64,000 nucleotides of DNA from Lutibacter sp. (GTDB lineage: Bacteria > Bacteroidota > Bacteroidia > Flavobacteriales > Flavobacteriaceae). Numbering within the stretch: position 1 is the first letter of the stretch; each line of letters starts with the position of its first letter. Location: positions 43,615-107,614 of the forward strand of contig NZ_WTAR01000030.1 of the NCBI RefSeq assembly GCF_013139515.1, given 5' to 3'. A program made the position numbers and the translations under genes. Shown piece after piece: positions 9,144 to 55,516 of this stretch. The notes under the pieces were generated by a model. It worked only from the letters and a program-made list of their open reading frames with translations. It was not told where the DNA came from and did not search any database.

Positions 9144-9179
9144 GATAGTTAATATTAATTTATGCTTGGAGGCATTATG
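9120..9179 (+). promoter_or_regulatory. Start-codon sequestering hairpin (HEG type)
   Basis: CATAATGCC (9120-9128) is perfectly complementary to GGCATTATG (9171-9179), which holds part of the ribosome binding site and the ATG at 9177. The loop begins GATAAGTATTATATT and ends CTTGGA. The same layout with a different stem sequence precedes the GIY-YIG gene at 50402, and an imperfect version precedes the gene at 46040. Confidence 0.7.
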
Positions 9180-9755
9180 AAGATTCAAAGAAGAGAAGGT
9201 GGATTTTATCATTGGCAAAAACAAGAATCGGATACTAAATGTGCATGTGGATGTGGTGGATTTATAACTAATAGATCAGCAAAGGATAAAAAAAAGGGGA
9301 AAATTGAAGGATATTTAAAAGGGCATGGTTGGAGAGGAAAGAAAATGTCAGAATCTTCTAAACAAAAAATGAGAGAAAATCATGCAGATGTTAGTGGAAA
9401 AAATAATCCAAATTATGGTAAAGGTTTGTTTGGTGAAGATAATCCAAATTGGCAAGGTGGAAAAGTAGGGTTATTATATGGAGTTGGAAATAATCAGAAA
9501 GGCATTAATACAAACAAAGATAAAAAATTTAGAAAAGAAATAATAAAACGAGATAAAGAATGTGTTTTGTGTGGGAGAAAAGAAATGCTTTGTTGTCATC
9601 ACATTATTCCTTGGGTTGAAAATGAGAATATAAGATTTGATAAAAATAATTGTGTTACTCTTTGCAATAAATGTCATCCAAGGGCAGATAATAAACATCA
9701 TTACGAAAAATATAAATTAATGCTAGAAAGTTATGTTGACAATTTATTAATTTAG
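9177..9755 (+). CDS. HNH homing endonuclease
   Basis: Free-standing nuclease, 192 residues from ATG 9177; an upstream in-frame ATG at 9162 would place GGAGG inside the coding sequence. Order: CACGCGG zinc-like motif, NUMOD3-like stretches (SESSKQKMRENH and GKNNPNYGKG), then a C-terminal HNH: CVLCGRKEMLCCHHIIPW ... CVTLCNKCHPRAD with two CxxC pairs. Such enzymes cut intronless alleles and spread by recombination. It is inserted between virion genes and has its own promoter and hairpin, signs of a mobile unit. Confidence 0.8.
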   Translation: MKIQRREGGFYHWQKQESDTKCACGCGGFITNRSAKDKKKGKIEGYLKGHGWRGKKMSESSKQKMRENHADVSGKNNPNYGKGLFGEDNPNWQGGKVGLLYGVGNNQKGINTNKDKKFRKEIIKRDKECVLCGRKEMLCCHHIIPWVENENIRFDKNNCVTLCNKCHPRADNKHHYEKYKLMLESYVDNLLI

Positions 9756-12276: not shown

Positions 12277-12746
12277 TGGCAAAAGCTGTTTGGTTTGATA
12301 AAGATATTGATTCAAAGATTGATAAAGCTTCAAAAAGAATTATCAAGGCTGGTTGTATTGCTTTGTCAAATGATTTAAAAGATATGATGGGTGGTAGCAA
12401 TGCTGGTCAACATCTTCCATACAGATCAAAGAAAAACCCAACTCAAACACATTGGAGTTCTAAACCTGGATCAGCACCAAATATTGATACTGGAGCATTG
12501 AAAGATTCTATTTCATGGGATACTTCATTTGGTGCTTCTGGTGGTGCAAGAAGAGGGTTAAATGAAGGAGTTAAAAGTCCAGGTGGTGGAAGATTTGTAA
12601 AAACTGGAGCGGTTGGAACTAATCATCCAGGTGCAAAAGCATTAGAGTTTGGATATTCTCCAAATAATTTAGCTCCAAGACCTTTTATGACTGTTGCTTA
12701 TGAATTTTTCAAACTCAATGATTTTTTAAGGAAATTTAGATTATGA
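12276..12746 (+). CDS. Neck / HK97 gp10-like tail completion protein
   Basis: 156 residues from ATG 12276 (TAATG overlap with the previous stop; an ATG six bases earlier is less likely). It has the family features SKPGSAPNIDTGALKDSISW and GTNHPGAKALEFGYSPNNLAPRPFM (compare GxxxxALExGxxxxxPRPF) of HK97 gp10-type proteins acting at the head-tail joint. It ends in an ATGA overlap with the inserted HNH gene. Confidence 0.75.
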   Translation: MAKAVWFDKDIDSKIDKASKRIIKAGCIALSNDLKDMMGGSNAGQHLPYRSKKNPTQTHWSSKPGSAPNIDTGALKDSISWDTSFGASGGARRGLNEGVKSPGGGRFVKTGAVGTNHPGAKALEFGYSPNNLAPRPFMTVAYEFFKLNDFLRKFRL

Positions 12747-13624
12747 ATAGCTTGTTAAAAATATGTACTAAATGTGGTCTTGAAGATGATATTAATAAAT
12801 TTCCTAAAGATAGACAAAAGAAAGATGGTAGACATCCTTGGTGTAGAGAATGTGTAAAAAAAAGAAATAAAGAATATTCTATAAATAACAAAGAAAAATT
12901 AAAAAAAAGTAGTAAGAAATATACAACTAAAAATAAAGAAAAAATGGATGAATATCATAAAAAATATAGAAGTGATAATAAGAAAAAAATAAGTGATTGG
13001 CATAAAAAAAATTATATTGATAACAAAGATAAAATTAATCTAAGTGGTTTTAATTATCGTAAAAACAATAAAGAGAAAATAAAATTAAAAGGTAAAAAAT
13101 ATAGAGATAACAATAGAGAAAAAATAAATAATTTTCATAAAGAATATAGATCATTAAAAGCAAAATACAAAGCATTGAAAAATAAATTAACTGTTGATGA
13201 ATCTCCAATAGAAGGAAAAAATGGTATCTTATTAGTTAAATGTAAGAAATGTAGGAAATACTTCAATCCAACAAATTTACAAGTTCAAAATAGAGTTCAA
13301 AGTTTATTAGGACAATCATCTGGAGAATCTAATTTGTATTGTTCTGATAAGTGTAAACAGAAATGTAGTATATATAATAAATGGAAAGATCAGTCTTTAA
13401 TTAATAAATATAATAAATCACGTTGCAATCAAAAAGTTAATAGACAAGCATTATTAGAAAATCAAATAGATAAATATGGATTTAATTTCTGTGAAAAATG
13501 TGGTAAAAAATCAGATTTATATATTCACCATAATATAATGATATCAAAAGATATCTCTATGGCAGATGATATGAGTCATCAAATATTAGTGTGTAAAGAA
13601 CATCATACACATGAGGGATGTTGA
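12743..13624 (+). CDS. HNH homing endonuclease with Lys-rich linker
   Basis: 293 residues. An N-terminal zinc finger (CTKCGLEDDINKF ... CRECVKK) leads into about six Lys/Asn-rich repeats of the type K.Y..NKEK, a central CKKCRKYF/YCSDKCK pair and a C-terminal HNH (CEKCGKKSDLYIHHN ... LVCKEHHTHEGC). The ATGA overlap with the upstream neck gene and the direct join to the tail-terminator gene show a precise insertion that keeps translational coupling. Confidence 0.7.
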   Translation: MNSLLKICTKCGLEDDINKFPKDRQKKDGRHPWCRECVKKRNKEYSINNKEKLKKSSKKYTTKNKEKMDEYHKKYRSDNKKKISDWHKKNYIDNKDKINLSGFNYRKNNKEKIKLKGKKYRDNNREKINNFHKEYRSLKAKYKALKNKLTVDESPIEGKNGILLVKCKKCRKYFNPTNLQVQNRVQSLLGQSSGESNLYCSDKCKQKCSIYNKWKDQSLINKYNKSRCNQKVNRQALLENQIDKYGFNFCEKCGKKSDLYIHHNIMISKDISMADDMSHQILVCKEHHTHEGC

Positions 13625-36459: not shown

Positions 36460-37032
36460 TTACCAAATCTTTAAATCTTTTTTAACTGCCATAAATAAAG
36501 CTCTTGAAACTTTAATTGCATCATTAACACTTAATCCTTTTTCAACCATATATTCTATTTGCTTAATCGCTTTTTCTTCATTTTTTTTATCCATCCATCT
36601 TTTTATTTTAAACATCTTTTCTCTAATCTTAGCTTTTCTCTTATCTGTAAGATTTCGATCTCTTTTCTTAACTCTTGATCTATTGACAATAGTGTAGTTA
36701 TCGGTGAACAAATCCTGCATTCCACCATCTTTCACACTCTGTATCCATAAATCTATTCTCTCTTCAGTTGTGAAGGTCTTATTAGTCAAAAATGCAGCAG
36801 GGAAACCAAATTTCTCAATCCATTCCCTTACATGTATTCTTGTCACATTAATATTGTGTTTTTCCTTCAAATATTTAGATATTTCTAATACATTAGATAG
36901 ATTGTGTTCTTTAACTTCTTTGTCATAATCAATGCAATGATCATATCCATCTCCATTAGATTTTCCACTTCCCATACAACCATGTCTATGATCACCACAA
37001 TTATTACATTTGATTAATTTATTTTTACTCAT
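36460..37032 (-). CDS. Zinc-cluster protein, possible DNA-binding regulator
   Basis: 190 residues. N-terminal cluster CNNCGDHRHGCMG with a further Cys in YDHCIDYD; middle segment LEISKYLKEKHNINVTRIHVREWIEKFGFP resembles a helix-turn-helix choosing a site (as in terminase small subunits or excisionases); the C-terminus is a basic helix. Last gene of the leftward arm, overlapping the HNH gene. Identity not established. Confidence 0.5.
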   Translation of the reverse strand: MSKNKLIKCNNCGDHRHGCMGSGKSNGDGYDHCIDYDKEVKEHNLSNVLEISKYLKEKHNINVTRIHVREWIEKFGFPAAFLTNKTFTTEERIDLWIQSVKDGGMQDLFTDNYTIVNRSRVKKRDRNLTDKRKAKIREKMFKIKRWMDKKNEEKAIKQIEYMVEKGLSVNDAIKVSRALFMAVKKDLKIW

Positions 37033-37553
37033 AATTCTTTCTTCTTTTTATTTTCTAACCACCATCTTAAATAATGTTTATTGCACATTTTTCTAGTTTT
37101 GACAGGATTATTACAACCTTGACATTTACATTTTTGCCCATTTAAATTTTTATATAATATAGGAGTTTTTAATATTTGTTTTGGAGACATTCCTTTCCGA
37201 TATCTTTTATAAACTAAATTATATGAAAGGTTATAGACGGAACACCATTTAGCCATTGGAATTCCATCTAATTTTATTGTTGTCCTTCTATTATTAGACT
37301 GTTCTTTTCTTGAGGCCCAAATGCAATTTTTTAAGCAATAGTTTCCATTAGAATTTAATCTCTCAATCGTATCTCCTTTTTGTGGAATACCCATATCTAT
37401 AATAAACTTTTCGATATCCATCCATTCAGAGCAGATAGATATTCCTCTACCTCCATAATCTTTATAGTCAGATGAGTTTTCATTTAAACATCTTTGTTTC
37501 ATAGACCTCCAACTTTGATAACAGGGGTGTTTATATCTACCATGAGTTTTCAT
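37029..37553 (-). CDS. HNH endonuclease
   Basis: 174 residues. HNH core: SWRSMKQRCLNENSSDYKDYGGRGISICSEWMD ... IERLNSNGNYCLKNCIWASRKEQSNNRR, like the AP2-HNH genes at 42846 and 45297 but without their zinc head or AP2 tail. Instead it ends with a NUMOD-like helix-turn-helix (YNLSYNLVYKRYRKGMSPKQIL) and a CQGC..CNKH finger. Its ATG overlaps the reductase stop (ATGA), as expected for an inserted, coupled homing gene. Confidence 0.7.
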   Translation of the reverse strand: MKTHGRYKHPCYQSWRSMKQRCLNENSSDYKDYGGRGISICSEWMDIEKFIIDMGIPQKGDTIERLNSNGNYCLKNCIWASRKEQSNNRRTTIKLDGIPMAKWCSVYNLSYNLVYKRYRKGMSPKQILKTPILYKNLNGQKCKCQGCNNPVKTRKMCNKHYLRWWLENKKKKEL

Positions 37554-42579: not shown

Positions 42580-42849
42580 TTAAATCCTTTTTATTTCAGT
42601 TTCAATATCTTTTGCTATCATATATAAAACTAAATAACCAGTTAAATCTTTAATAGTATCATCACCTAAATATTCACTTCCTTTTTTTAGTCTATTTATT
42701 TTATCATCCATTCTGACAGCTAATTGTTCAACTGCTGTATTTTTACTAAAAATATTTATTGGTTCTAATGCTGAATTACCATAAGCGATATTTTTATCAA
42801 TTAGGAATTGTTTTATTTCATCACATTTTTTTTCAATCATTACTTTCAT
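42580..42849 (-). CDS. DUF1599 (nucleotide-modification-associated) protein
   Basis: 89 residues from ATG 42849, which overlaps the HNH stop as ATGA and has GGAG seven bases upstream. NIAYGNSALEPINIFSK and VEQLAVRMDDKINRLKKG ... GDDTIKDLTGYLVLYMIAKD match DUF1599, a helical domain associated with nucleotide metabolism. The homing gene lies directly upstream and maintains coupling. Confidence 0.7.
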   Translation of the reverse strand: MKVMIEKKCDEIKQFLIDKNIAYGNSALEPINIFSKNTAVEQLAVRMDDKINRLKKGSEYLGDDTIKDLTGYLVLYMIAKDIETEIKRI

Positions 42850-43544
42850 ATTACACTCCATAAGTTAAGTTCAGGAAAATTAAGTTGATGCGGTAAATTA
42901 TTTTTTATTATATAAATATCTCTATAAATAGCAGCACTTTTAGCTGTTTTAAATCCAGATTTATCTAATAATATTCTTCTATCTTTATACATGATTATAG
43001 AATTAAAAGTTTTATTTTTTCTTTTAATAATACCAATATAACCACTTGTATTATTTTTATATTTTCTCTTGTTTAATACATTAATTTGAACAGTAACAAA
43101 TCTGCAATTATTAGGCGTATAATCACCATCATTATCTTCTCTATCTATCTGCAATCCTTTTTTATATCCATTAATTAAAGACCAATCATAAAATAATTTA
43201 AAATCATTCATCCACTCAGTACAAATAGATATTCCCCTTCCACCATAATTATGATAAGATTTATCTTTTTTATTATAACATCTTTGTTTCATACTTGTCC
43301 ATACAGAATAAAGTGGGATTTTATTATATCCTGAACATCCATGCTTAAAACTCCTTTCTTTTATTAATTCTTTATTAAGGCACCCACATGATTTAGTATG
43401 TCCGTTTCTTAAATTGCTTAATAAAAATTCTTTAACAACTCCACAATCACATTTACATAAAACTCTTCTCCTTCCTTCTTGTTCAACTTCTCCAACAATC
43501 ATTAATCTATTATATTTATCTCCTTTAATAAATATATTTTTCAC
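42846..43544 (-). CDS. HNH homing endonuclease with AP2 domain
   Basis: 232 residues from GTG 43544, which overlaps the upstream stop (TAGTG) with GAGG before it. Order: zinc-finger-like head (CKCDCGVVKEF ... SCGCLNKE), HNH core (MKQRCYNKKDKSYHNYGGRGISICTEWMNDF ... IDREDNDGDYTPNNCRFVT), C-terminal AP2-like DNA-binding domain (SGYIGI ... SGFKTAKSAAIYRDIYI). Intact homologue of the broken gene at 17248 and of 45297. Site-specific DNA cleavage and self-spread are expected. Confidence 0.85.
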   Translation of the reverse strand: MKNIFIKGDKYNRLMIVGEVEQEGRRRVLCKCDCGVVKEFLLSNLRNGHTKSCGCLNKELIKERSFKHGCSGYNKIPLYSVWTSMKQRCYNKKDKSYHNYGGRGISICTEWMNDFKLFYDWSLINGYKKGLQIDREDNDGDYTPNNCRFVTVQINVLNKRKYKNNTSGYIGIIKRKNKTFNSIIMYKDRRILLDKSGFKTAKSAAIYRDIYIIKNNLPHQLNFPELNLWSVI

Positions 43545-43750
43545 TATTTATCCTCACTATATATAATTTCTACAATTTCTGACTCTTTCCAAATAATTAT
43601 ATTTTCAGGTTTATTTTTAAGAGCTTGATTTAAAATACAATCAGCAGAATCTTTTACTTGTTTCTTAACTTGAGCAACTGTACAATCATCACTCCATTTA
43701 CCACAAACATCAATTTTTAATATAACTTTTATTTTAGCTGTGACACTCAC
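43544..43750 (-). CDS. Small hypothetical protein
   Basis: 68 residues (AKIKVILKIDVCGKWSDDCT ... KDSADCILNQALKNK). ATGA-type overlap with the upstream gene and TAGTG overlap with the inserted HNH gene. No motif recognised. Confidence 0.45.
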   Translation of the reverse strand: MSVTAKIKVILKIDVCGKWSDDCTVAQVKKQVKDSADCILNQALKNKPENIIIWKESEIVEIIYSEDK

Positions 43751-45114: not shown

Positions 45115-45303
45115 TTATTTAACTAAGCAATCTAATGACCAAGGATGATGATTTACTAATGTTTTGTGTCTATAATCACATTTAGTACATGTTGCTATAT
45201 ATGAACCTGATTGAAATCCATTTTGTTCAAGTTTGATTGAAGCATCACATTTTGGACACTTTGTTCTACCAGAAACAATTTTTCCATTTTTATATCCTAA
45301 CAT
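45115..45303 (-). CDS. Small zinc-ribbon protein
   Basis: 62 residues with CPKCDASIKL and CTKCDYRHKT, a rubredoxin-type CxxC...CxxC ribbon, then NHHPWSLDC. It overlaps the homing endonuclease gene by seven bases. Function unknown. Confidence 0.5.
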   Translation of the reverse strand: MLGYKNGKIVSGRTKCPKCDASIKLEQNGFQSGSYIATCTKCDYRHKTLVNHHPWSLDCLVK

Positions 45304-46040
45304 AATCTACTCTCTAAATTTAATAATCCAACTACGTTTAATTTATGTGGCAAGTTATTTTCAATGATATATTCATTTCTAACAATTGCAGCCTCTCTTG
45401 CTGTTTTAAAACCTGATTTATAAAGTATTTTTTTATTTTTATAATTAATTTGACATGAATATAATTTATTTATTTTATGACATGTAATTCCTATATATCC
45501 ACTAGTATTATCAATTCTTTTCCTTCTATTTAAACTGTTTATCTGATGTGTCACAAATCTACAATTATCAGGTGAATAGTTCCCATCATTATTTCTTCTA
45601 TCTATTTCCAACCCTTTTTTATATCCATTATCTAAACACCATTTATAAAACTTTGTAAAGTCTTTTCTCCATTCATCACAAACAGTTATCCCCCGACCAC
45701 CATAATTATGATAATCTTTATGTTTTTTATAATAGCACCTTTGTTTCATACCCATTAATACACTATATATTTTATCAATATTACCAACTTTTGCAAATCC
45801 ATGTTTTGTATTTCTTTTTATTATTTGTTCTTTATTAAAACAACCACATGATTTAGTTACCCCTTTTATTAAATTTCTTATTGGAGTTTTCTTTTCATTA
45901 CCACAATCACATTCAACTAATGCTAATAATCTTCCATCATTACTCATTTCATCTAATATTTTAACTAATTTTAATCTTCCAAATATACAATTTAAATATT
46001 GATTGTAATTTATTCTACTTTTATTTGTTTTTCTTTTCAT
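45297..46040 (-). CDS. HNH homing endonuclease with AP2 domain
   Basis: 247 residues. Zinc head (VECDCGNEKKT ... SCGCFNKEQI), HNH core (MKQRCYYKKHKDYHNYGGRGITVCDEWRKDF ... IDRRNNDGNYSPDNCRFVT), AP2-like tail (SGYIGITCH ... SGFKTAREAAIVRNEYIIENNLPHKLN). Closely similar to 42846 and to the relic at 17248, so the family has multiplied in this genome. The upstream region has an imperfect start-codon hairpin. Confidence 0.85.
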   Translation of the reverse strand: MKRKTNKSRINYNQYLNCIFGRLKLVKILDEMSNDGRLLALVECDCGNEKKTPIRNLIKGVTKSCGCFNKEQIIKRNTKHGFAKVGNIDKIYSVLMGMKQRCYYKKHKDYHNYGGRGITVCDEWRKDFTKFYKWCLDNGYKKGLEIDRRNNDGNYSPDNCRFVTHQINSLNRRKRIDNTSGYIGITCHKINKLYSCQINYKNKKILYKSGFKTAREAAIVRNEYIIENNLPHKLNVVGLLNLESRLC

Positions 46041-49514: not shown

Positions 49515-50402
49515 TTAATCCTCTATATACCAAAAAGATAATCCTTTTGTTGTTTTTTGTCTATTATGTAAAACATTACATATTCCTTGACTTAATACTC
49601 CAGTATCTTCTCTTACTTCTAAAATACTTAAATATATTTTACCATTAGAACAACCTATTTTTTTACCATTCATTAATGATTTTGCTCTTTTAATAGCATA
49701 TTTTTTATCAATTTTCATACCTTTAATTGGACTTGGTTTACCAATTCTTGATTTAGATATTTTTATTTTTGTTTCTTCTGAAAGTTTTCTACCTTTACAA
49801 GACTCAGAAAGATTTTTTTTATGTTCTTCGGAAAAATGCTTACCATAAGCCCAATGATTTTCTTTTGTATTTACCTTAGACATTATATCTCTTGTTTTCT
49901 TTGTATGTTTTCTACCATAATTTCCATTATTTTTACCACTTGAAGCTATTGAAATTTTCTTCTTTGTTTCTTCTGAAAGTTTAGATCCAGTTCTTAATTT
50001 TGATAATTTCAATCTTACTTCTTTTGTATGTGTTTTTCCATACATACCATTTTTTTCACCAATCAATAATCCTTTTCTCTTTTCTGACATTCTCTTTTTA
50101 ACTTCATCACTAAAATATACATTTGAATTTCCACCAGATATTAAATTATATCCATATGGAGAAATAGTATTTAATTTATCAATCCAATATATTTCTCTAC
50201 TATTTAATTCATCAACTTTACACTCTTCTAATACATCAAATATAAAATTATTAACTCCATATTTAATTATAGATTTTTTTATAGAAGATTTATATTTAGT
50301 TTTTTTATTTTTATGTTCAGTTAATCTTCTTTGTATATTTATACTCTGTCCAATATAACATTTTTTAGTTATTTTATTTTCAATACAGTAAATTCCTATC
50401 AT
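49515..50402 (-). CDS. GIY-YIG homing endonuclease
   Basis: 295 residues. GIY-YIG domain at the N-terminus (GIYCIENKITKKCYIGQSINIQRRLTEH, catalytic Arg and later Glu in LNSREIYWID), four or five NUMOD3-like helices (LSEETKKKISIASSGKNNGNYG and similar), and a NUMOD1-type helix-turn-helix end (SILEVREDTGVLSQGICNVLHN). It is a free-standing homing gene. The ATG is covered by a perfect 10-bp stem. Confidence 0.85.
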   Translation of the reverse strand: MIGIYCIENKITKKCYIGQSINIQRRLTEHKNKKTKYKSSIKKSIIKYGVNNFIFDVLEECKVDELNSREIYWIDKLNTISPYGYNLISGGNSNVYFSDEVKKRMSEKRKGLLIGEKNGMYGKTHTKEVRLKLSKLRTGSKLSEETKKKISIASSGKNNGNYGRKHTKKTRDIMSKVNTKENHWAYGKHFSEEHKKNLSESCKGRKLSEETKIKISKSRIGKPSPIKGMKIDKKYAIKRAKSLMNGKKIGCSNGKIYLSILEVREDTGVLSQGICNVLHNRQKTTKGLSFWYIED

Positions 50403-52616: not shown

Positions 52617-52804
52617 TTAATCTCCTTAAACTTTTCATAAAATTCTTTTCTTTCCCTAACATAAATAACTCCACTTGATACATCATTCCCAAATTGTGGA
52701 GAATACATGACCATTATTTGACCATCTCTATCATTTGTTGCATTTACAACTTCATCTAATTTGTAATAAACATGATCTGTTTTTATATTAAAGAATTTTT
52801 TCAC
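52613..52804 (-). CDS. Small DUF1653-like protein
   Basis: 63 residues from GTG 52804, which overlaps the recA stop (TAGTG) with GAGG upstream. YYKLDEVVNATNDRDGQIMVMYSPQF ... GVIYVRERKEFYEKFKEI follows the DUF1653 plan (K/L-x-YxVxxxAxxT...VxYxxxY...WvRxxxxFxe), though weakly. Function unknown. Confidence 0.45.
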   Translation of the reverse strand: MKKFFNIKTDHVYYKLDEVVNATNDRDGQIMVMYSPQFGNDVSSGVIYVRERKEFYEKFKEIK

Positions 52805-53973
52805 TATGAAAACCTCTTCTTTCTTTTTAATTTCATAGAATCTTCGATGTAGCTCCAAGAAACACCAACAATTTCATCAAGGTCTTCTTCAAGATTATTA
52901 TTTTCAATATAATCAATTAGTTGATCTTTAGCTTTCCCATCTGAATTTGAAGTAAAATCCATATCAAATTCAGGAGCCTTGATTGTTTTTCCTGCTTTTT
53001 TCCAAATATTATTCTCTAAAAGAAAATCAATATTTGCTCCAATATTATCAATACCAAAAGAATCAAATATATCAAATTCAATAGTTCTCTTTTTACCTGT
53101 CATTTTATTCTTAGAAACATCAAGTTTGGTTCTTTGACCAATAACTTTCTTATATATATCATCTTTATGAGATGCTTTTTTAGACAACCACCATTGATGT
53201 GTTGAATAAAAATATGGTGCTTCTCCACCACTGGTTGCATGTTTCTTTTCAAATGGCCCTGCATTTATTTTTTGTCTCAACTGTTGTAAAATATTAACTG
53301 ATGAATCAGTATTTTTAACTTCTTTCTTAATCATTCTAAGTATTTGACCAAGAATTTTTGCTTTTTCAGTATTAAAACTGCCTTTAAGCTCTTTTATATG
53401 TTCAGGAGATTTTGCATCACGAACAGCTTCTTTATATTCCTTTTCTATTTCTTCATCTGTTGATAAAGCATCAAGTGAATCAAGAACCCATATGAACTTA
53501 ATACCCTCATTTGATTTCATAAGAATATTACTTTTAAACTCTTGAATAGTATTTGAGTTGATTGGAATGCCATTTTTATCATAACGTGGAGAAATGATTC
53601 TATTTTTAAGCTTATCTCCAAATAAATGAGATATATTAAATTCTGATGCATGTTCAACATCATCAAAAATCAATTCATATTCATCAAATCTAGGGTTGTT
53701 TGCTATTGCTGCAAGCATATTATAAACCAAAAATGTTTTTCCACTAGATGAAGAGCCTGGAATAGTATTAATCTTACCCATTCCTGCTCCACCATCAATA
53801 GTATCTGTACAAGCAAGATTTAATAATGTCAAACCAGTGGGGATTAATTTATCTTTGTCAACATATTCAATTACATCATCACTTTCATCCATATTTTCAA
53901 TAGCACCATCAATTTTATCTGCAACTTTTTCAGAATCACTCATCTTATTTCTACTTCCTTTAGGTCTAGGCAT
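52804..53973 (-). CDS. RecA/UvsX-like recombinase
   Basis: 389 residues. Walker A PGSSSSGKTFLVYN (near residue 83), LIFDDVEHA in the position of the catalytic Glu strand, Walker B FIWVLDSLDAL, then the QLRQKINAGPFEKKHATSGG loop region. MPRPKGSRNK at the N-terminus is AT-hook-like. It forms filaments on ssDNA for recombination-dependent replication, with the gp32-like SSB, SbcCD and resolvase encoded nearby. Confidence 0.8.
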   Translation of the reverse strand: MPRPKGSRNKMSDSEKVADKIDGAIENMDESDDVIEYVDKDKLIPTGLTLLNLACTDTIDGGAGMGKINTIPGSSSSGKTFLVYNMLAAIANNPRFDEYELIFDDVEHASEFNISHLFGDKLKNRIISPRYDKNGIPINSNTIQEFKSNILMKSNEGIKFIWVLDSLDALSTDEEIEKEYKEAVRDAKSPEHIKELKGSFNTEKAKILGQILRMIKKEVKNTDSSVNILQQLRQKINAGPFEKKHATSGGEAPYFYSTHQWWLSKKASHKDDIYKKVIGQRTKLDVSKNKMTGKKRTIEFDIFDSFGIDNIGANIDFLLENNIWKKAGKTIKAPEFDMDFTSNSDGKAKDQLIDYIENNNLEEDLDEIVGVSWSYIEDSMKLKRKKRFS

Positions 53974-53983
53974 TTAATTCTCC

Positions 53984-54187
53984 TTATGTATTTGCTAACA
54001 AATCAACTCTATTGACAATAATAACTTTTCCTGGTTCATTCATATCACAAGATTTTATATCAATTAATTTGAATGAAATTGATCTAGGAATCATTCCTGT
54101 ATCATTATGAAATCTTTGTAATGATTCCTTAATTTCATTTTCAGTTAATTTAATAGCATCTTCTAATTCATCACGAATAGTCTTCAT
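53984..54187 (-). CDS. Small protein leading the recA operon
   Basis: 67 residues (MKTIRDELEDAIKLTENEIKE ... KSCDMNEPGKVIIVNRVDLLA). AAGGA is nine bases upstream, and a 146-nt structured leader precedes it. No family recognised. Confidence 0.45.
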   Translation of the reverse strand: MKTIRDELEDAIKLTENEIKESLQRFHNDTGMIPRSISFKLIDIKSCDMNEPGKVIIVNRVDLLANT

Positions 54188-54418: not shown

Positions 54419-54498
54419 AGTAGTTTATTAATTGATTTCAAGTCAATCAGTAATTTCCTATAATTGAAAACATTTGAGATCTAAATTTTAGTTTAAAT

Positions 54499-54604
54499 AC
54501 TGATGCAAACCTATTTGCTATCTCCCTATAATTTTCAAAACATATAAATATTTATACACTTAGAAAATGGTAGGGAGAATGAGAATCGAACTCATACCTT
54601 CAGT
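54499..54604 (-). tRNA. Circularly permuted tRNA-like gene
   Basis: Read on the minus strand, the 3' half comes first: anticodon-stem ACTGA (54604-54600), variable AGGT, T-arm ATGAG-TTCGATT-CTCAT (54595-54579), acceptor TCTCCCT (54578-54572), A73 and encoded CCA (54570-54568). A 40-nt AT-rich spacer follows, then the 5' half: acceptor AGGGAGA (54527-54521), TA, D-arm GCAAATAGGTTTGC (54518-54505), A26, anticodon-stem TCAGT (54503-54499). All stems pair fully: 7/7, 4/4, 5/5 and 5/5. No acceptor partner exists in the normal or tandem order. Beyond the anticodon stem TTAGATCT can pair with GGATCTAA, extending the helix. Permuted tRNAs are known in red algae and archaea and permuted tmRNAs in several bacteria; which type this is remains open. 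The anticodon depends on how the ends are joined (UUU for two of the possible joints). Confidence 0.7.
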
Positions 54605-54745
54605 TTAATAGAACATTAGATCCAATAACATCAATGAGGAAATATAAATTTGTGGGTGCAATAAACTCAATCTGATTCTTTCCAAGTGCCAAACCCTTAG
54701 AAAATAAAAATAAGGTTAATGATAAAGCTGACCCAAAAATTATAA

Positions 54746-55516
54746 CTATGAATTAATATATTTAAAAATTGCTTCTCCAATTCGTTTCTTTTCTACAGTA
54801 GTGCTATTTGCTCTCATTCGTGCTTGTTTAGCAGCACGAAGAAGATTATCAACATTACCAATAAGTTTTGATTTTTCAGTTGGAGTAATCATACCACACC
54901 AAACTTCTTTTGAAAATTTTCCAATATTAACAGTTTCCTTCCATGTTTCAATCTGAGCAGGAAGTGCTTGCCCACCTTCACCATCTTTTGGAAACGCTGG
55001 TGGAACTATAACTTTATGTTGCGGCCTTTTTTCAGTTTTTAATGATTCTTCAGGAGTAGATCTTGAATAAGTATTACTACCCTTTGTTTCATCAAGCACC
55101 CATTTAATTCCAGGTGAAAGTGTTGGAATTGCATCATATACCTTTCTTAGTTCTTTCATTTCACTTTCAAGACCAAGAAGATATGTTGCTGGAACTTTTT
55201 CAGCAAGAACAACCCCATCAACAATAAGATCAGCTACTGCATTTTGGTTTGTTGATTCTTTTTGAAGAATACCATCAAAAGCTTTAATAATACTCTTAGA
55301 CATATATTCAAGTTTATCACAAACAGTTGTAGTCATTTCTTGACTTTCATCAATTCTGTTCATATATGAATCTTCATCATCAAACATTTTAAGACTTCTT
55401 GAAAATCCCATAAATAGATTGTCTTTTTTGAAAGTCTTTATTGTTTCATTAATGATTTTATTTTTAATACCTTTTAAATTTGATTCTACTGCAAGTAATT
55501 CATGTAATTTTCCCAT
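54746..55516 (-). CDS. Conserved phage protein (DUF7873-like)
   Basis: 256 residues. GKLHELLAVESNLKGIKNKIINET, FGMxxxYxxxDED-like middle, VPATYLLGLESEMKELRKVYDAIPTLSPG, and the C-terminal VWCGMITPTEKSKLIGNVDNLLRAAKQARMRAN match a protein widely conserved in phages beside replication genes, without a known role. Located between SSB and the RNA locus. Confidence 0.6.
   Translation of the reverse strand: MGKLHELLAVESNLKGIKNKIINETIKTFKKDNLFMGFSRSLKMFDDEDSYMNRIDESQEMTTTVCDKLEYMSKSIIKAFDGILQKESTNQNAVADLIVDGVVLAEKVPATYLLGLESEMKELRKVYDAIPTLSPGIKWVLDETKGSNTYSRSTPEESLKTEKRPQHKVIVPPAFPKDGEGGQALPAQIETWKETVNIGKFSKEVWCGMITPTEKSKLIGNVDNLLRAAKQARMRANSTTVEKKRIGEAIFKYINS

Follow-up and report, generated by a model that had tools for sequence, protein, structure and literature searches.

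What kind of RNA would be encoded by a gap between two genes in which every arm of a tRNA cloverleaf is present, but in permuted order? This question is raised by a locus in Lutibacter sp. assembly GCF_013139515.1 (source assembly G000), within a stretch of 64,000 nucleotides, hereafter the window, that spans positions 43615–107614 of one contig (C153). This contig is 107,614 bases long and, judging by a 127-base terminal direct repeat, probably represents a circular genome in full. Its gp32-like, UvsX-like and DUF7873 genes have counterparts in phages, and they point to a probable phage that was binned with the bacterial assembly. The element lies in a 558-nt gap. On one side, directly upstream in the direction of transcription, is a minus-strand gene (54746–55516) for a 256-aa DUF7873 protein (PF25283, Pfam E 2.8e-67), which is the sole match to this family in the assembly. 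On the other side is a small ORF (53984–54187), beyond which a RecA/UvsX-like gene is located (52804–53973). Inspection by eye also revealed ORFs resembling HNH or GIY-YIG homing endonucleases elsewhere in the window (9162–9755, 12743–13624, 37029–37553, 42846–43544, 45297–46040 and 49515–50402), and, to its left, large genes of the contig with interruptions that resemble inteins.

A scripted parse of the minus strand from 54604 to 54499 yields a circularly permuted cloverleaf in which all 21 of 21 pairs form (acceptor 7, D 4, anticodon 5 and T 5), exactly as a preliminary description of the locus had proposed, including the encoded CCA. The minus strand begins with the 3′ strand of the anticodon stem, ACTGA (54604–54600), which is followed by an AGGT linker (54599–54596), the T-arm ATGAG TTCGATT CTCAT (54595–54579), the acceptor 3′ strand TCTCCCT (54578–54572), the discriminator A73 (54571) and the CCA sequence (54570–54568). 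A 40-nt spacer (54567–54528), folded as an AT-rich hairpin, then leads to the acceptor 5′ strand AGGGAGA (54527–54521). After two nucleotides (TA) comes the D-arm GCAA ATAGGT TTGC (54518–54505), and after a single A the 5′ strand of the anticodon stem, TCAGT (54503–54499), completes the order. The additional helix that had been described as extending the anticodon stem is likewise present in sequence and fold, and is formed by GGATCTAA (54623–54616) and TTAGATCT (54484–54477), both on the minus strand.

This arrangement is confirmed as real and beyond chance. When the same descriptor was run on one strand of the 64-kb window after dinucleotide shuffling (60 replicates), 31 hits reached at least 18 of 21 pairs and none reached 21, and the two further hits in the window itself, both at just 18 of 21, correspond to about the chance rate. 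The two acceptor strands and the spacer of the window also make one long hairpin, and thus part of the acceptor match could stem from this hairpin alone. The pairing found in relatives, described below, reduces this concern.

Existing tools do not report the element. We considered a conventional tRNA and rejected it, given that the 5′ half does not precede the 3′ half and that ARAGORN reports nothing in the window; the sole conventional tRNA it finds in the contig is a tRNA-Met (CAT) just to the left of the window (contig positions 43460–43536). No Rfam family matches the site, or any other part of the window, at gathering scores, and searches at the site with E values up to 10 return just low-scoring, unrelated families.

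A DNA search of phage records with the window element gave nothing useful, and therefore the protein encoded upstream was used to find relatives. DUF7873 proteins are present in 71 phage records, and 1218 proteins match at E ≤ 0.001 in a large protein set. From these relatives we assembled 172 loci, consisting of 13 of the 71 phage records, 79 IMG/VR loci (from the best 80 of 237) and 80 bacterial genome loci (the best 80 of 265, mostly from actinobacteria). A permuted domain is located within 700 nt downstream of the DUF7873 gene in 155 of the 172 loci (12/13 phage, 66/79 IMG/VR and 77/80 genome), and the window has the same arrangement. Shuffled sequences gave only 10 hits in 3440 trials, the antisense strand gave none in the phage and IMG/VR sets and one among the genome loci, and an equal length upstream of the gene gave hits in 3/13, 3/78 and 2/79 loci, respectively. 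The earlier contention that the cloverleaf is not a product of chance thus holds both for the shuffled window and for this recurrence.

Loci carrying two or more domains number 4 in the phage set, 6 in the IMG/VR set and 44 in the genome set. Such tandem domains beside a single DUF7873 gene were seen in Klebsiella and actinobacterial phages (L024 and L028–L030) and in 44 of the 80 chromosomal loci (L114–L193). We then trained a covariance model on 47 domains, taken from the window and other loci. Of the 17 loci that the descriptor had missed, 14 yielded the domain with at least 48 bits; in L094 and L169, the recovered domain lies more than 700 nt downstream of the DUF7873 gene. The model found no convincing domain in L031 (26 bits), L064 (23 bits) or L184 (none). 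The last of these holds a DUF7873 gene of a genome (G038) in which two RNAs resembling those of DUF7873 loci occur elsewhere (L212 and L213), neither of them having such a gene in the surrounding 2.5 kb or so. ARAGORN tRNA predictions overlap only 3 of 209 permuted domains, and Rfam at gathering scores returned only tRNA and two tmRNA matches in 23 DUF7873 loci. In Klebsiella phage FBKp24, a tRNA-Sup-TTA is annotated over the second permuted domain (L024:3518–3597), and this annotation is probably a misreading of that domain.

The preliminary description had noted that its proposal would be undermined by relatives in which the two halves do not pair, and we find that they do. Because the original scan selects on pairing, it was rerun with selection on the T-arm and D-arm only. 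The acceptor stem then proved to be fully paired (7/7) in 9 of 10 phage, 56 of 67 IMG/VR and 66 of 72 genome cases (131 of 149), with mean pair numbers of 6.7, 6.33 and 6.82 in the three sets versus 3.96, 3.49 and 4.75 when partners were swapped among loci. The IMG/VR set (best 80 of 237) includes 49 distinct 7/7 acceptor stems, and each position shows all four Watson–Crick pair types. Pairing is weaker in the anticodon stem, which averages 4.4, 4.13 and 4.18 of 5 pairs versus 3.3, 3.01 and 3.36 after swapping. RNAalifold, run unprompted on the 47 domains, returned the T-, acceptor and D-stems with double changes at 15 of 16 pairs, and did not return the anticodon stem. When the structure was given, 92.6% of alignment cells pair versus 59.0% in shuffles, for rows that had been picked by pairing score, and the register stands alone when the alignment is slid. 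Flanking sequences beyond the anticodon stem also pair above the swapped level (8.24 versus 7.09 for phage and IMG/VR loci, 7.43 versus 6.63 for genomes). On the basis of these comparative data, we consider the permuted tRNA-like domain to be a real and widespread element conserved with compensatory changes. That the locus instead descends from a pair of tandem tRNA genes whose outer halves were lost is exceedingly improbable and is disfavoured here. The covariance model does also match tandem conventional tRNAs, a point in favour of such a relic, but the compensatory changes across relatives argue against decay, and no remnant halves are apparent by eye in the flanks.

A domain with this shape could be a true permuted tRNA gene, whose transcript would be cleaved and then religated in the anticodon loop to give a decoding tRNA with UUU, AUU or UUA as the possible anticodons. 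In red algae and archaea, permuted tRNA genes similarly present a 3′ half, an intervening sequence and a 5′ half, and mature via a joined circle (PMC3978253); in the window, the break falls in the anticodon loop. The complete cloverleaf with its CCA is in keeping with this reading, and every 7-nt join that can be made in the window gives U33, with two joins producing a Lys UUU loop, so the window sequence alone permits decoding. The family argues against it. Among the 209 domains, U33 is found in only 9/16 phage, 35/72 IMG/VR and 27/121 genome examples, and the domain family is therefore unlike decoding tRNAs. Moreover, the anticodon stem runs into further outer helices that enclose the junction, the anticodon loop is not conserved, and no tRNA-splicing endonuclease (PF01974), RtcB (PF01139) or PF09414 RNA ligase was found in the source assembly, which is estimated to be 90% complete. 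We therefore depart from the preliminary description where it treats the locus as a tRNA gene that decodes, which we regard as very improbable.

The same description also likened the locus to tmRNA, and there are features that make this comparison attractive. Two-piece tmRNAs share the permuted gene order, the spacer between the CCA and the acceptor 5′ strand, and the joining of a tRNA-like domain to an RNA body (PMC10085705, PMC3978253). A corresponding hypothesis is that the element gives a processed, multi-piece tmRNA-like RNA, in which RNase P and 3′ trimming would remove the spacer and the freed CCA end would be charged and used in translation. The acceptor stem and T-arm are of full length, and 72 of 88 phage and IMG/VR domains (12/16 and 60/72) encode CCA; among the conventional tRNAs at these loci, the corresponding counts are 39/80 and 117/151. 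Within the IMG/VR set, the domains thus encode CCA about as often as conventional tRNAs do, and this pattern fits phage 3′ ends that would be matured as tRNA ends. Only 22 of 121 genome domains encode CCA, whereas none of 50 conventional tRNAs at the genome loci does so. Given this low proportion, and acceptor loops that are mostly 6–9 nt in genome domains, free CCA ends may be confined to phages. RNase P favours U at position −1. This nucleotide is present in 34 of 72 IMG/VR domains, but in only 4 of 16 phage domains versus 44 of 80 conventional tRNAs there.

Inspection of the window RNA by eye brought no evident tag reading frame to light. Other characteristics depart from tmRNA more directly. 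Pair 3–70 of the window domain is G–C rather than G–U (G3–U70 occurs in 18 of 209 domains), a D-stem is present, and the Rfam tmRNA models do not match the window even with E values up to 10, although the same library does find tmRNA in two of the loci (L028 and L100). The discriminator base is mixed among domains, and therefore no single synthetase identity is indicated. In view of these differences, tmRNA is not supported for the window, and the multi-piece, charged version is unlikely. The cutting step of that hypothesis is nonetheless compatible with the explanation we prefer, and charging is the part that we doubt.

The domain appears to be one portion of a longer transcript. A structured noncoding RNA is predicted to extend over the intergenic region on the minus strand from about 54745 to 54378 (predicted ends), and an unconstrained fold of this sequence has a z-score of −5.6, with none of 100 shuffles folding as well. 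This fold includes the T-, acceptor, D- and anticodon stems along with further outer helices. At the 3′ end is an intrinsic terminator-like site (54417–54378), composed of a 12-bp stem with a loop of 6 (54417–54388) and a T-run; one such site was found, versus a shuffle mean of 0.3. A promoter scan found promoter-like sites to be no commoner than in shuffles. In the fold, the predicted 5′ body (54745–54605) forms a GGGT...ACCC helix. This body is also weakly periodic at 6 nt, with a lag-6 identity of 0.378 that 4.6% of mononucleotide shuffles reach.

The periodicity is far more conspicuous in relatives, where the RNA outside the permuted domains is periodic at 6 nt, with lag-6 z-scores of 5.5 (phage), 8.1 (IMG/VR) and 23.5 (genomes). 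At least two tandem hexamers of the form YARNYT are present in 8/12 phage, 20/61 IMG/VR and 52/77 genome loci, whereas shuffles give 0.25, 2.4 and 0.5. Both the periodicity and the hexamers (L021–L193) are strongest in bacterial genomes. These repeats may constitute a protein-binding array, a view against which the absence of tandem hexamers from 41 of 61 IMG/VR loci must be counted. When the 5′ bodies of four relatives were folded by themselves, the z-scores were −0.1, 0.2, −2.8 and −1.1, clearly better than shuffles in one case only, and for this reason structure in these bodies stays at the level of prediction. In 6/12 phage, 24/66 IMG/VR and 12/77 genome loci, the RNA is followed by a conventional tRNA at a distance of up to 250 nt. 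GOLLD and other large phage RNAs are also structured and occur near tRNA clusters. The RNA described here resembles them in being a structured phage RNA near or with tRNAs, and differs in that no Rfam family matches the window at gathering scores.

The closest precedent among known RNAs is the bacterial Y RNA YrlA. The Rfam YrlA model (RF02553) has the same permuted order, and a relaxed threshold gives a match to L021, a relative from a Rhizobium phage, that covers the permuted module (E 0.0036) and aligns the T-arm, acceptor 3′ strand, loop, acceptor 5′ strand and D-arm. The score of 23.4 bits is far below the gathering score of 69, and the window itself gives no match with E values up to 10. 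A bacterial Y RNA is reported to superpose on tRNA with circular permutation (PMC11472068, citing structure PDB 6CU1), and the modules of the window and L021 follow this order from T-arm to D-arm. In YrlA, the Ro60-like protein is described as binding a basal stem made from the two ends of the RNA, and PNPase as binding the tRNA-like domain (PMC8394870); the RNA predicted here shares this plan of a basal stem plus a tRNA-like domain. The preliminary description is thus upheld in placing a permuted tRNA shape in a probable phage, but its statement that no phage example was known needs to be changed, since the YrlA module is permuted alike and such domains lie near a phage Ro60 (TROVE) gene in two of four TROVE loci scanned (L194, from Rhizobium phage RHph_TM21B, and L196).

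These two loci and the shared module might be taken to indicate a canonical YrlA RNA bound by Ro60, a reading that is highly improbable for the window and that we disfavour. No TROVE gene was found in the source assembly, and the RNA is linked to DUF7873 instead. Of 36 phage or viral records with DUF7873, only 5 have TROVE (4 above the cut-off), and searches with four phage TROVE queries located it in the flanks of 3 of 173 DUF7873 loci (L023, L046 and L145), the flanks being 2.5 kb, or 5 kb for L021–L023. The RNA also departs from YrlA in its greater predicted length, in the 6-nt periodicity of its relatives and in that 44 of the 80 genome loci carry two modules.

The RHph_TM21B phage, which also has a DUF7873 RNA, carries permuted domains upstream of its TROVE gene (L023:9759–10577) that score 59.7, 41.7 and 35.7 bits with the R1 model, and by eye some of these have CCA and there is a recurring GTTGCGA motif. 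Actinobacterial Y RNA-like units in L209, L218 and L214 have in common, by eye, a motif resembling GGTGCGCAGGC..GGATACTTC; within the stretches examined, a TROVE relative was found only near L214, which is from a bacterial genome. Among 14 control genomes, Deinobacterium chartae is the sole one that matches DUF7873 and also the sole one that matches TROVE.

A decoy role against anticodon nucleases has been put forward for YrlA (PMC7790460), and an equivalent proposal can be made for the present RNA, namely that a tRNA body with no anticodon loop would occupy host defence enzymes that cut tRNAs. The lack of conservation in the anticodon loop is in accord with this proposal, and so is the fact that several phages carry DUF7873 within a tRNA cluster. 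We nevertheless hold the decoy proposal to be quite unlikely, given that the cassette also resides in many actinobacterial chromosomes, where a phage decoy would have no plain use, and that the phage represented by the window has only the one conventional tRNA reported by ARAGORN.

If the RNA functions with a protein, DUF7873 is its predicted partner. The AlphaFold model of the window protein is confident (mean pLDDT 93, pTM 0.80) and features long helices at residues 4–29 and 65–90, a helix at 110–128, long strands at 156–171 and 188–207, and a long C-terminal helix at 212–236. Residues that are invariant or nearly so include K86, N90, D96, K163, K230, R233 and N237. A comparison of the model with folds in the PDB gave no clear match, such that no solved fold stands out, and the median pI of the family is 6.5 (8.6 for the window protein), and RNA binding by DUF7873 is accordingly proposed with caution. 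A crude comparison of chromosomal neighbours disclosed no shared neighbour beyond DUF7873 and no functional hint, and the absence of shared neighbours suggests that the protein and the RNA form a stand-alone cassette.

Taking these observations together, we favour, with a probability of roughly 60%, the explanation that the conserved, DUF7873-linked permuted tRNA-like domain is the predicted head of a longer noncoding RNA, likely a Y RNA-like tRNA mimic that resides in an RNA–protein particle. The RNA is best read, by analogy, as resembling a Ro-bound Y RNA in its manner of working without being one, and as acting independently of Ro. The gap would be transcribed, and DUF7873 would bind the resulting RNA, probably along the hexamer repeats. 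The tRNA-like head may be recognized by an enzyme that handles tRNAs, with RNase P, tRNA-modifying enzymes and PNPase as candidates, and would not enter the ribosome as a decoding tRNA. In phages, the encoded CCA suggests that RNase P and 3′ trimming would release the acceptor end, so that the RNA would consist of two pieces joined through its helices. As to its benefit for a phage, the reading we adopt is that such an RNA would dock a host tRNA enzyme, either for use or for blockade.

A more ambitious version of this explanation, which we offer tentatively and consider somewhat doubtful, is that DUF7873 and its RNA represent a third class of tRNA-mimic ribonucleoprotein beside tmRNA–SmpB and Ro60–Y RNA. 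DUF7873 would assemble along the 6-nt repeats of an RNA bearing one or two permuted heads, and tRNA-processing enzymes would free the acceptor ends to give an RNA of two or three pieces, by which part of the tRNA machinery would be captured. This stand-alone cassette of two genes would be shared between phages and actinobacteria.

In 155 of the 172 loci, DUF7873, a family with no assigned function, is accompanied by a structured element that neither Rfam nor ARAGORN reports, both in bacterial chromosomes and in phages that infect several hosts. Its distribution suggests that the permuted tRNA shape of Ro-bound Y RNAs is used more widely, with another protein. DUF7873 gains a first testable role, as the partner of an RNA, and the benefit that phages may draw from tRNA mimics becomes open to experiment in the cultured Rhizobium and Gordonia phages.
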